This document shows positions 39,880 to 44,000 of a stretch of 64,000 nt of DNA, piece after piece. The notes below the pieces were generated by a model that was given only the letters and a program-made list of their open reading frames with translations, did not search any database and had not been told where the DNA came from. The DNA is taken from positions 1 through 64,000 of the forward strand of contig JADYYS010000006.1 of NCBI GenBank assembly GCA_020853525.1. The letters run 5' to 3'. The DNA is from Ardenticatenales bacterium (lineage in GTDB: Bacteria; Chloroflexota; Anaerolineae; Epilineales; Epilineaceae). The first letter of the stretch is position 1. Each line of letters starts with the position of its first letter. A program made the translations under genes and the position numbers.

Positions 39880-41450
39880 GGGTCCGTCCGGAATCTTGTG
39901 TAACCAGCCGGCCGCAGGTCAGAGGGGGAGGCGGTCATCGAAGCGGATGGCGAGCTGATTGAGGACGAGGGGCCAACCTGGGATGGCGCCGGTCCAGCGT
40001 TTGGTGATGTTTATGTGGGCCAGGTAGAGGAGCTTCCTGGCGGCGTCGGCAGTCGGGAAGGAACCCTTGGTCTTGATGACCTTGCGGAGCTGGCGATTGT
40101 AGGCCTCGATCCGGTTGGTCGTGTAGATGAGCTTGCGGATCTCAGCGGGGAAGTCGAAGAAGGTGGCCAGGTCGTCCCAGTGGGTCAGCCAGGAGCGTAC
40201 GGCGGCGGGATAGCGCTTGCCCCAGACCTCCTCGAGGCGTTGGAGCTGGCGCTCGGCCTCCTCGCGGGTCGGGGCGCGGTACACCGTCTTGAGGTCGGCG
40301 ATGAAGGCTTTGTAGTCCTTCCATGTGACGTAGCGGAGGCTGGCCCGAATCTGGTGGATCACGCAACGCTGAAGGCGGACCTTGGGGAAGATGGCCCGGA
40401 TGGCCTCATCGAAGCCGGCCAGACCATCGACGCAGGCGATGAGGATGTCCTCGACGCCCCGGCTCTGGAGGTCGGTGATGACCGACAGCCAGAAGTTGGC
40501 GCCCTCGGCGCCGTCGCTGACCCAATGGCCCAGGACGTCGCGGTGGCCTTCGGTGTCGATCGCAAAGACGATGTAGACGACGACGGTCTCGACCCGGTTG
40601 TTCTCGCGCCGCAGCTTGATATGCAGGCCATCGAGGAAGACGATGGGGTAGACAGCGGCCAGCGGCCGGGCCTGCCACGCACTCACCAGCGGCATGATCT
40701 TGTCGGTGACGGCACTGATCGTGGTCGGGGCGACGTCGATGCCGTAGAGCTCTTCAAGCACGTCCTGGATGTCCCGCACCGACTGGCCGCGGGCGTAGAG
40801 CGCAAGGATCTTCTCCTCGATCTCGTTGGTCTGCCGCTGGTAGGGCCCGATGATCTGCGGCTCGAAGGAGCCGTTGCGGTCGCGAGGCATGGCAATGGTC
40901 TGCTCGCCGCCCTCGGTCTTGAGCGTGCGTCGATAGCGCCCGTTGCGGCTGTTGCCGGAGTTCCGGCCCACGACCTCGTGCGCTTCGTAGCCCAGGTGAG
41001 CGGTGATCTCGCCTTCGAGCATCTCCTCGATGGTCTTGGCGAACAGCCGGGCGAAGATCCCGTCCTTGCCGTAGAAGTCGTTGACCGACTTGGCCGTTGC
41101 CAACTCGGCCATCACGCGTTCCGCAGAAGGCATCGACACCCCCGGCCGCCCGGCCGTCGCCTCCACGACGGCCTCGGCCAGCCGAGCGGCTCGGGCCTGC
41201 GCCACGCTCTCGCGTCGGGTCTTTTCACTCACGAAGGGAGTCCTTTCTTGTGCCGCTTGCGCGGCCGGCTCACGGTTCGAGCCGCCCTGACCCCGGTCGT
41301 TGCTGACACCTCCAGCCTACACCAGAGTCCGGGCGGTGGGGAGCCGGGCCGGGGCGCACATGCGCCCTGACCCGGTTCGCCATCGTCCGGAAACCGTTCT
41401 CCCTCCAACCTTACGTCACCTTCCGGTTACACAACTTTCCGGACGCCCTC
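39880..41450 (-). mobile_element. Complete IS256-family insertion sequence
   Basis: Transposase flanked by inverted ends GTCCGGAATCTTGTGTAACC (39886-39905) and GGTTACACAACTTTCCGGAC (41425-41444), 18/20 matching. Outer boundary set by identity with the partial copy and by the 8-bp flank analysis. Confidence 0.9.
39919..41232 (-). CDS. IS256/Mutator-type transposase
   Basis: VFLDGLHIKLRRE, IACVDGLAGFDEAIRAIFPKVRLQRCVIHQIRASLRYV, LIYTTNRIEAYNRQLRKVIKTKGSFPT. Confidence 0.97.
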   Translation of the reverse strand: MSEKTRRESVAQARAARLAEAVVEATAGRPGVSMPSAERVMAELATAKSVNDFYGKDGIFARLFAKTIEEMLEGEITAHLGYEAHEVVGRNSGNSRNGRYRRTLKTEGGEQTIAMPRDRNGSFEPQIIGPYQRQTNEIEEKILALYARGQSVRDIQDVLEELYGIDVAPTTISAVTDKIMPLVSAWQARPLAAVYPIVFLDGLHIKLRRENNRVETVVVYIVFAIDTEGHRDVLGHWVSDGAEGANFWLSVITDLQSRGVEDILIACVDGLAGFDEAIRAIFPKVRLQRCVIHQIRASLRYVTWKDYKAFIADLKTVYRAPTREEAERQLQRLEEVWGKRYPAAVRSWLTHWDDLATFFDFPAEIRKLIYTTNRIEAYNRQLRKVIKTKGSFPTADAARKLLYLAHINITKRWTGAIPGWPLVLNQLAIRFDDRLPL

Positions 41451-41721: not shown

Positions 41722-42489
41722 ATGAGCCAATTTGATCCCAACCGCCATCATCGCCGGTCTATCCGTCTGAAGGGCTACGACTACACGGCCGCCGGCGCGT
41801 ATTTCGTCACGATCGTGTCACATAGCCGCCGGTGCCTGTTCGGCGAGGTGGTGGATGGCGTAATGCACCGTAATCCCGTGGGCGAGATCGTGGCGGCGTG
41901 TTGGGCAGCGATTCCGCGGCACTTCGGACACATCGCGTTGGATGAATGGGTGGTGATGCCGAATCATGTGCACGGGATATTGGTGTTTCGCACGGCGGGG
42001 GCGGGGACACGTGCGGGGGCGGTCACGATGGCCGGGGGTAGGGGCGAAGCATCCGCCACGATTCCGGTCGGTTGTCCGGACGAACACTGGCTGGCGGATG
42101 CTTCGCCCCTACGCGACACGCCGAACCCCGCCGCCATCCGCCCCATTGGAACCCGTCCCGGTTCCGTCGGCGCCGTCATCCAAAATTTCAAATCGGTGTC
42201 CGCGCGCCGCGTGCGGGCCGGGGGCAGGGGCGAAGCGTCCGCCACGATTCCGGTCGATTGTCCGGACGATCATTGGCTGGCGGATGCTTCGCCCCTACGA
42301 CGTACGCCGCCCGAACCGCGCCAACGACGTTCCCCGGCGAACCCGTACGCCGGCCCCATCTGGCAACGCAACTACTACGAACACATCATCCGCGGTCCAG
42401 ACGCTCTGGATCGCATCCGGTGCTACATCCGCGAGAACCCCCTTCAGTGGGCCACCGATGCCAAACACCGGCCTGGGGAAAGCCCGTAA
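41722..42489 (+). CDS. REP-associated tyrosine transposase (RAYT, Y1_Tnp)
   Basis: RSIRLKGYDYTAAGAYFVTIVSHSRRCLFGEV; HUH motif VVMPNHVHGILVF; C-terminal IWQRNYYEHIIRGPDALDRIRCYIRENPLQW with catalytic Tyr. Confidence 0.93.
   Translation: MSQFDPNRHHRRSIRLKGYDYTAAGAYFVTIVSHSRRCLFGEVVDGVMHRNPVGEIVAACWAAIPRHFGHIALDEWVVMPNHVHGILVFRTAGAGTRAGAVTMAGGRGEASATIPVGCPDEHWLADASPLRDTPNPAAIRPIGTRPGSVGAVIQNFKSVSARRVRAGGRGEASATIPVDCPDDHWLADASPLRRTPPEPRQRRSPANPYAGPIWQRNYYEHIIRGPDALDRIRCYIRENPLQWATDAKHRPGESP
42039..42111. repeat. 73-bp palindromic repeat R1 inside the RAYT ORF
   Basis: Perfect 20-bp inverted ends TAGGGGCGAAGCATCCGCCA / TGGCGGATGCTTCGCCCCTA. Confidence 0.95.
42225..42297. repeat. 73-bp palindromic repeat R2 inside the RAYT ORF
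   Basis: AGGGGCGAAGCGTCCGCCA...TGGCGGATGCTTCGCCCCT; about 4 differences from R1 over ~71 bp. Confidence 0.95.
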
Positions 42490-42554: not shown

Positions 42555-44000
42555 ATGCCCTCCCCAGCGCCCCCCCCCCACCCCGCCCGCGTCCTCGTCG
42601 TCGGCTCCGGCGGCCGCGAGCACGCCCTCGCCTGGGCCATCGCCCGCTCGCCGCTCGTGAGCGAGGTGATCGTGGCGCCCGGGAACGGCGGGACGGCGCG
42701 CGAGGCCAAGTGTCGCAACGTGCCCGTGCAGGTGTACGACATCGACGGGCTTGTCGCGCTGGCGTCGCAAGCCGGCGTCGACGTGACCGTCATCGGGCCC
42801 GAGGACGCGCTGGCGGCCGGGCTGGCGGATGCGCTGCGGGCCGCCGGGCATGCGGTGTTCGGGCCGTCGCGCGAGGCGGCGCGGATCGAGAGCAGCAAGG
42901 GCTGGGCGCGGGCGTTCATGGTGCGCTACGGCATCCCGTGTCCGGTGTTCGCCACCGCAGCGAACGTCGACGACGCGCTGCGGGCCGTGGCGGAGATGGG
43001 CGGGCGGTGCGTCGTGAAGGCGGACGGGCTGGCGGTGGGCAAGGGGGTTGTGGTGTGCGACGACGCGGCGGCGGCCGAGGCGGCGGTCCGGACGATGATG
43101 GAGGACGGCGCCTTCGGCCCGGCCGGCGCGCACGTCGTCGTCGAGGAGCGGATGGAGGGGCCGGAGCTGTCCGTCATGGCGATCTGTGACGGCCACACCT
43201 ATCGGCTGCTGCCGCCGGCGCAGGATCACAAGCGCGTCGGCGAAGGGGACACCGGGCCGAACACGGGAGGCATGGGCGCGTACGCCCCGGCGCCGATCGC
43301 GACACCCGAGCTCATGGCGCGGATCGAGGCGACGATCATCGCCCCCGCGCTGGACGGCCTGCGCGCCGACGGGCACCCGTTCACCGGCTGCCTGTACGCC
43401 GGGCTCATGCTGACCGGCGATGCGCCCCACTACGCCCCCAGGGTCGTCGAGTTCAACGCCCGCTTCGGCGACCCCGAGACCCAGGTGCAATTGCCGCTCG
43501 TACAGAGCGACGTCGCCCTCCTCTTCGCCCTCGCCGCTGCCGGCCGCCTGGCCGACGCGCCGTTCGAGCTGGCGCCCGGCGCCGCCGCGTGCGTCGTCCT
43601 CGCCTGCCCCGGCTACCCCGGCCCCGTGACGACCGGCGCGACGGTCGTCGGCCTCGACGTGGCGGCCGAGCGCGCCGACATCAAGGTATTCCATGCCGGG
43701 ACACGCATCGAAGTCGCCGGCACCGACGCCGTGCGCACGTCGGGCGGCCGCGCGCTCGGCGTCACCGGTGTCGGCCCGAACGTCATCGAGGCGCTCCGAA
43801 CGACATACGCCGCGATCGGACCGGACGGCGTGCACTTCGACGACATGGTTGTTCGCCACGACATCGGCTGGCGGGCGCTGACGGATGCGATCGGCGACAG
43901 CGTGGACGGCGTTGAAGTCGGGGACGGCGTCGATGCCGCCGGGCGACACAGCGGCGTCGACACCGACGACACCGACCTGGGCGCGGGCGAAGGCGTATGA
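42555..44000 (+). CDS. purD: Phosphoribosylamine-glycine ligase
   Basis: VLVVGSGGREHALAWAIARSPLVSEVIVAPGNGGTA; KADGLAVGKGVVV; NTGGMGAYAPAP; FNARFGDPETQV. Confidence 0.97.
   Translation: MPSPAPPPHPARVLVVGSGGREHALAWAIARSPLVSEVIVAPGNGGTAREAKCRNVPVQVYDIDGLVALASQAGVDVTVIGPEDALAAGLADALRAAGHAVFGPSREAARIESSKGWARAFMVRYGIPCPVFATAANVDDALRAVAEMGGRCVVKADGLAVGKGVVVCDDAAAAEAAVRTMMEDGAFGPAGAHVVVEERMEGPELSVMAICDGHTYRLLPPAQDHKRVGEGDTGPNTGGMGAYAPAPIATPELMARIEATIIAPALDGLRADGHPFTGCLYAGLMLTGDAPHYAPRVVEFNARFGDPETQVQLPLVQSDVALLFALAAAGRLADAPFELAPGAAACVVLACPGYPGPVTTGATVVGLDVAAERADIKVFHAGTRIEVAGTDAVRTSGGRALGVTGVGPNVIEALRTTYAAIGPDGVHFDDMVVRHDIGWRALTDAIGDSVDGVEVGDGVDAAGRHSGVDTDDTDLGAGEGV

Follow-up and report, generated by a model that had tools for sequence, protein, structure and literature searches.

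A Chloroflexota RAYT gene with two in-frame REPIN-like palindromes of its predicted cognate REP type

The RAYT gene and its two internal palindromes

The window analysed here is a 64,000-nt stretch of an Ardenticatenales bacterium genome (contig JADYYS010000006.1, forward strand). On its plus strand, at 41722-42489, lies a gene for a RAYT (TnpA_REP), an HUH-Tyr enzyme of 255 aa that resembles subclass 2.4, as judged from the open reading frame, alignments, a fold match and the dN/dS of its core. Within this gene are two palindromic repeats, R1 (42038-42112) and R2 (42224-42298), both in frame, and the reading frame stays open over 255 codons, as a first-pass annotation of the same DNA had observed. 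An IS256-family (Mutator family) transposase is encoded upstream on the minus strand (39919-41232), and the gene directly downstream of the RAYT gene (42555-44000, plus strand) reads from its sequence as a putative phosphoribosylamine-glycine ligase (purD).

The RAYT identity proposed in the first-pass annotation was borne out by both alignment and fold. A profile of 22 relatives found a single solved structure, 4ER8 (E. coli TnpA_REP), that of the enzyme in complex with a REP hairpin, and a Foldseek search with the AlphaFold2 model of the window RAYT placed the same structure at rank 1 (4er8, E 4.5e-05), followed by IS200/IS605 transposases; the structure alignment covered loci outside the G-numbered relatives. 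H82, H84 and Y235 align with 4ER8, giving an HUH motif plus a single catalytic tyrosine in a Y1 fold. The two histidines, invariant in the alignments, belong to the motif NHVH (N81-H84, 41962-41973), and Y235 (42424-42426), which lies in YIRENP, is aligned to Y115 of 4ER8. The catalytic tyrosine had earlier been assigned to NYYEHIIR; this segment is instead part of the beta4 stretch WQRNYYEHIIR (42361-42393), where W214, Q215, E220, H221 and R224 align with W94, Q95, E100, H101 and R104 of 4ER8, the named GTAG-contact set of TnpA_REP (PMC8266576, PMC6006769).

The core of the AlphaFold2 model is confident, and the loops formed by R1 and R2 have low pLDDT. Between the window RAYT and its ortholog in a sister genus (G002), the core dN/dS is 0.13, which indicates that the enzyme is under selection despite its inserts; judged from sequence, the catalytic core has stayed intact under purifying selection. 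The sole family match to the protein was NCBIfam NF047646 (REP_Tyr_transpos), at 44.8 bits against a cut-off of 80 bits that is an annotation rule and not a biological feature. Since nine relatives tested, with or without inserts, also score below 80 on this model (47.6-73.2 bits), NF047646 under-scores the clade to which the window RAYT belongs, and with all ten clade members tested below the cut-off, automatic annotation probably misses this group. No PADLOC match to an anti-phage defence family was obtained.

R1 has perfect arms of 21 nt (42038-42058 and 42092-42112) around an interior of 33 nt, and covers residues 106-131 in the beta3-alphaC loop. R2 has arms of 19 nt that are 95% complementary (42226-42244 and 42278-42296), likewise with 33 nt between them, and covers residues 168-193 in the alphaC-beta4 loop. 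The conserved segment that the repeats flank, already placed between the HUH motif and the tyrosine in the first-pass annotation, corresponds to the alphaC helix of the AlphaFold2 model (residues 149-167, 42166-42222). The 94-nt units containing the two repeats are 90% identical at a spacing of 186, the 75-bp units differ at five positions, the interiors differ at three of 33 nt, and the 8 nt upstream (GGCCGGGG) are common to both. The near-identity of the repeats reported earlier is thus correct, while their length is 75 bp and not 73 bp, and the differences number five and not about four. Both units start in the same codon phase and measure 75 nt (25 codons) from foot to foot, so the 2-bp duplication once proposed alongside a 73-bp element is not needed to keep the frame.

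R1, a REPIN-like double-foot REP, carries the feet GTAG...CTAC and fits the rule of a 5' GT[AG]G with a 3' C[TC]AC. In R2 the 3' foot CTAC is kept and the 5' foot has degraded to GCAG; mutation of the GTAG foot lowers or abolishes activity in the enzymes tested (PMC8266576). Chance palindromes were ruled out by an expectation of 0.00 arm matches within the window together with the folding of the single-stranded DNA relative to shuffles (z = -8.5 for R1 and -5.6 for R2). No match to a known RNA family was obtained.

Related palindromes in the genome, the sister genus and other relatives

Across the genome that contains the window, no exact homology to the 94-nt unit was found elsewhere, and the exact arm ATCCGCC, with at most one mismatch, occurs only inside the window RAYT gene. 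The same genome has nine further hairpins with the head GTAGGGGCGAAGC (reversed-pattern control, 0). Among the nine longest frames overlapping these hairpins, one contains a Pfam domain (ABC2_membrane_6, residues 395-628 of the L055 frame, beginning downstream of the hairpin), a count that does not establish an intergenic position for the hairpins. In G002, the exact arm is dispersed at several other loci. That the palindrome might have no other genomic copies, a possibility raised in the first-pass annotation, therefore holds for the exact arm within its own genome and fails for the head and for the sister genus.

In the RAYT ortholog of G002, both sites hold inserts with the identical arm. 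The interiors differ between the window and G002 inserts, and the G002 site-2 interior is unlike the interior at its site 1, so that site 2 was either occupied before the genera split or filled separately. Between the window and G002, the arms are identical at 73 of 80 positions (91%) and the core at 350 of 492 (71%; p = 5e-5), which argues that the insert DNA has been maintained, converted or re-inserted. Local segmental duplication of R1, instead of REP insertion, is a serious if somewhat less probable account of R2: the nearly identical interiors and the shared upstream 8 nt are what it would leave behind, but it sits poorly with the G002 site-2 arms, which enclose an interior of their own. 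Because REPIN interiors normally differ and those of R1 and R2 do not, the template from which R2 was copied was probably R1 itself or the source of R1.

Other arrangements were observed in the same genomes. Two loci of G002 (C314:8559-8746 and C259:11550-11737) hold the same four-arm REP cluster of ~187 bp, one of them ~4 kb from the G002 RAYT gene. A paralogous RAYT in the own genome (L046, C47:20154-20819) has a different REP pair within its ORF, in which outer arms of 27 nt, separated by 80 nt, enclose two complete GGGCACGGCATGCCGTGCCC palindromes. No REPs flank the window RAYT gene in the 6-kb stretch examined, whereas relatives often have them; flanking REPs are usual in REPtrons but not universal.

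In three relatives (G017, G052 and G093), populations of elements of 67-75 or ~60 bp were found, with conserved ends and variable interiors. In G017 and G052, elements of 67-73 bp are bounded by the window-type head and vary in their interiors from copy to copy, and this combination of conserved ends with copy-specific interiors is the REPIN architecture. One such element lies inside the RAYT gene of G017 and another inside that of G093 (L144), the latter belonging to a many-copy family (56 head-to-head matches in G093, all types counted). The earlier reading of the repeats as REP-type mobile palindromes is upheld. In G052, a class relative, the window-type head is found on 13 elements of 69-71 bp whose interior sequences recur; its assembly is 81% complete and gave no RAYT match at E 1e-8, and it thus presents REPs without a detected enzyme.

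Internal palindromes are frequent in this group of enzymes. In the same-class set, a GT[AG]G...C[CT]AC palindrome lies between the HUH and WQ motifs in 28 of 57 RAYT ORFs, with a density of 2.07/kb in this interval, while elsewhere in the ORF the density is 0.19/kb and in the flanks 0.14/kb; under a looser palindrome rule, 40 of 63 RAYTs of the same clade are occupied and 23 have no internal palindrome. Of the 71 RAYT ORFs in a cross-phylum set, 60 contain a palindrome between HUH and WQ, at a density ~7-fold that of the flanks (4.1/kb vs 0.61/kb). Clade-wide, then, the first loop (beta3-alphaC) recurrently holds an internal REP whose sequence varies by subclade, and the suggestion that the repeats might be an ancestral, conserved part of the clade is right about the occupied loop and wrong about the sequence. 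Of 22 aligned RAYTs, only those of the window and G002 have the second loop (alphaC-beta4, site 2) occupied. The empty site sought by comparison with insert-free RAYTs was accordingly seen for site 2 at the protein level, and no close relative without inserts was found for a nucleotide comparison.

In-frame REPs inside tnpA_REP genes are a published hallmark of subclass 2.4, the subclass in which such insertions predominate (Quentin et al. 2018, PMC6006769). The frequency of internal palindromes agrees with that study, so the kind is already known, and the situation of the window gene is not exceptional, given that such REPs are both published and present in most relatives examined. The window gene is a further member of this published kind, with a second occupied loop.

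It is possible, though we hold it tentatively, that the in-gene copy is a functional, built-in REP, retained because it serves as, say, a linked master copy holding enzyme and substrate together, an autoregulatory mRNA hairpin or an end for mobilising the gene. Such a role would fit the excess identity of the arms over the core, the occupation of the first loop across phyla, an mRNA fold stabler than shuffles (z -4.5) and five genomes (G070, G116, G102, G084 and G139) in which the palindrome type, searched by exact pattern, occurs only inside the RAYT gene. However, the same pattern would arise if a REP population supplied the gene with new insertions time and again or with gene-conversion tracts, and 23 of the 63 clade members have no internal palindrome.

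The alphaC helix and REP type

For comparison among genes, REP type was defined as the four bases after GTAGGGGC. Nearest neighbours in alphaC agreed on palindrome type in 25 of 32 cases, compared with 2.6 in shuffled data (0 of 500 shuffles reached the observed value), in a test that carries relatedness among RAYT genes along and concerns a helix that physically adjoins the insert. Corresponding windows around HUH and around the W of WQ agreed in 7/32 and 6/32 cases, respectively. The alphaC signal was replicated in the cross-phylum set (24.5/45 vs 2.5 expected; maximum of 5000 shuffles, 11). Palindrome type follows alphaC much more closely than it follows other segments of the protein.

The signal is carried by columns -8, -5, -2, -1, +2, +3 and +7, which lie on one helical face, and column pairs with z>6 number 24 of 84 in alphaC vs 1 of 164 and 0 of 132 in other blocks. 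Gln at -2 occurs with A in 15 of 16 cases, Arg is accompanied by a purine in 40 cases out of 41, and Gly never occurs with A. The combination QN at -2/-1 is found with REP type [GA]AAG in 8/8 RAYTs, the window included, where Q154-N155 (42181-42186) are the predicted specificity residues and alphaC as a whole the predicted REP-recognition helix. In E. coli TnpA_REP, the equivalent helix, alpha3, contacts the REP (PMC8266576). In addition, the internal type equals the flanking REP type in 10 of 24 genes (1.1 in shuffled data, maximum 5). A RAYT core tree built without the loop or alphaC is poorly resolved, and on it REP type is weakly clustered (26 changes vs 30.8 shuffled).

Because the tests leave relatedness in and the helix adjoins the insert, the covariation might reflect mere linkage or shared ancestry, with REP and alphaC travelling as one DNA module. 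We consider this unlikely, although it is a live rival, and a degree of agreement (11-12.5/32) is also seen in windows located 32-40 residues upstream of HUH. The HUH and W windows lie near the insert as well and yet agree rarely; the covarying residues share one helical face and make chemical sense (Gln with A); the equivalent E. coli helix touches its REP; and flanking REPs, which lie beyond the gene, correspond in type to the internal one. Covariation, flanking match and recurrence together point to the internal REP as very likely the cognate substrate of its own enzyme, and the earlier proposal that this RAYT hosts its presumed substrate type is, by the matches of type, alphaC and flanks, very probably right. 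Coevolution of RAYTs with flanking REPs was already known (PMC2817692); the alphaC helix code and its link to an in-gene REP look new relative to the RAYT/REP literature compared.

In the cross-phylum set, five genes read the ACGG palindrome in one frame and five others in a different frame, and its two frames yield unrelated peptides (e.g., RHAVP and RGTACRAPT), so what recurs is DNA and not peptide. No intact-GTAG palindrome in that set lies in a frame giving an in-frame TAG, and the two palindromes found in the TAG-giving frame have a mutated foot. Selection on the inserts (RGEASA...ADASPLR) as surface loops with a peptide-level function, which their shared frame and nearly identical peptides might suggest, is accordingly disfavoured and very improbable, given the disordered, low-pLDDT loops, the two frames of the ACGG palindrome and the interiors that differ from those of G002. 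That the inserts add surface loops, as the first-pass annotation also considered, is consistent with their placement in low-confidence loops of the AlphaFold2 model.

Proposed explanation and comparison with known systems

The sequence evidence argues, in our view strongly, for a probably active RAYT of the subclass 2.4 / group 4 kind whose coding sequence hosts two copies of its predicted cognate REP as 75-bp REPIN-like inverted pairs. The enzyme would recognise GTAG with beta4 and the stem with alphaC, which would make the in-gene hairpins substrates when single-stranded. They may have entered by RAYT-mediated insertion of its own REP into tolerant loops, and would persist because an insertion leaves a working enzyme only when it lands in these loops, in frame and without an in-frame TAG. 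Points against this explanation are the confinement of the arm ATCCGCC to the gene in its own genome, the R2 foot GCAG, the deviation of YIRENP from the YIxNNP motif and the low NF047646 score. A bolder and distinctly less certain proposal is that the enzyme gene might be a self-contained unit, in which a fixed loop carries a copy of the substrate that alphaC would read by a simple residue-to-base code (e.g., Gln-Asn at -2/-1 with [GA]AAG), kept at the DNA level so that enzyme and substrate would be inseparable in inheritance or transfer.

Subclass 2.4 of TnpA_REP, which equals group 4 in the RAYT classification of Bertels et al. 2017, is the closest known system. The window gene resembles it in NHVH (NH[IFV]H), in the WQ motif (WQRNYYEH), in a long variable region between HUH and the tyrosine and in double-foot GTAG...CTAC REPs in frame inside the gene. 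The Y-motif of the subclass, YIxNNP, has one deviation in the window, reads YIRDNP in G002 and takes other variants in relatives. In contrast to the subclass, the window has a second REP in the alphaC-beta4 loop, its elements are 75-bp REPIN-like pairs, and no REP flanks the gene in the stretch examined. REPINs, as Bertels and Rainey reportedly described them in 2011, consist of two inverted REPs with a diverged spacer and a near-constant total length. The window units are likewise inverted REP pairs, but within the own genome their exact arm is found nowhere else, and both copies sit within the RAYT gene. E. coli TnpA_REP (4ER8) shares the fold, the HUH-Tyr core and the GTAG-contact W, Q, E, H and R, and differs in having no internal REPs, a REP with a bulge and a C-terminal tail. 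The GTAG REPs of Di Nocera et al. 2013 (PMC3733652) are also GTAG-tagged, RAYT-associated palindromes, some inside ORFs; the head GTAGGGGC is not named in the main text of that paper, and the window copies lie inside the RAYT itself. Rickettsia palindromic elements are similarly in frame in protein genes, but are CGTC-tagged, occur in unrelated genes and have no known transposase (PMC3733652).

How RAYTs choose their REPs and how REP populations spread is a largely unsettled field, and a 2021 study could offer no more than speculation on the residues by which group 3 REPs are recognised (PMC8266576). A gene with its own cognate REP inside would provide a matched enzyme-substrate pair straight from sequence, and from such pairs a recognition code could be inferred and tested by helix swaps. 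For annotation, the insert peptides of such genes should not be recorded as conserved protein domains.

As to the neighbouring IS256-family transposase, its 24-28 C-terminal residues recur at ~15 places in the own genome, mostly at contig ends; the element is thus multi-copy and interrupts the assembly, and the window's own contig starts with it.
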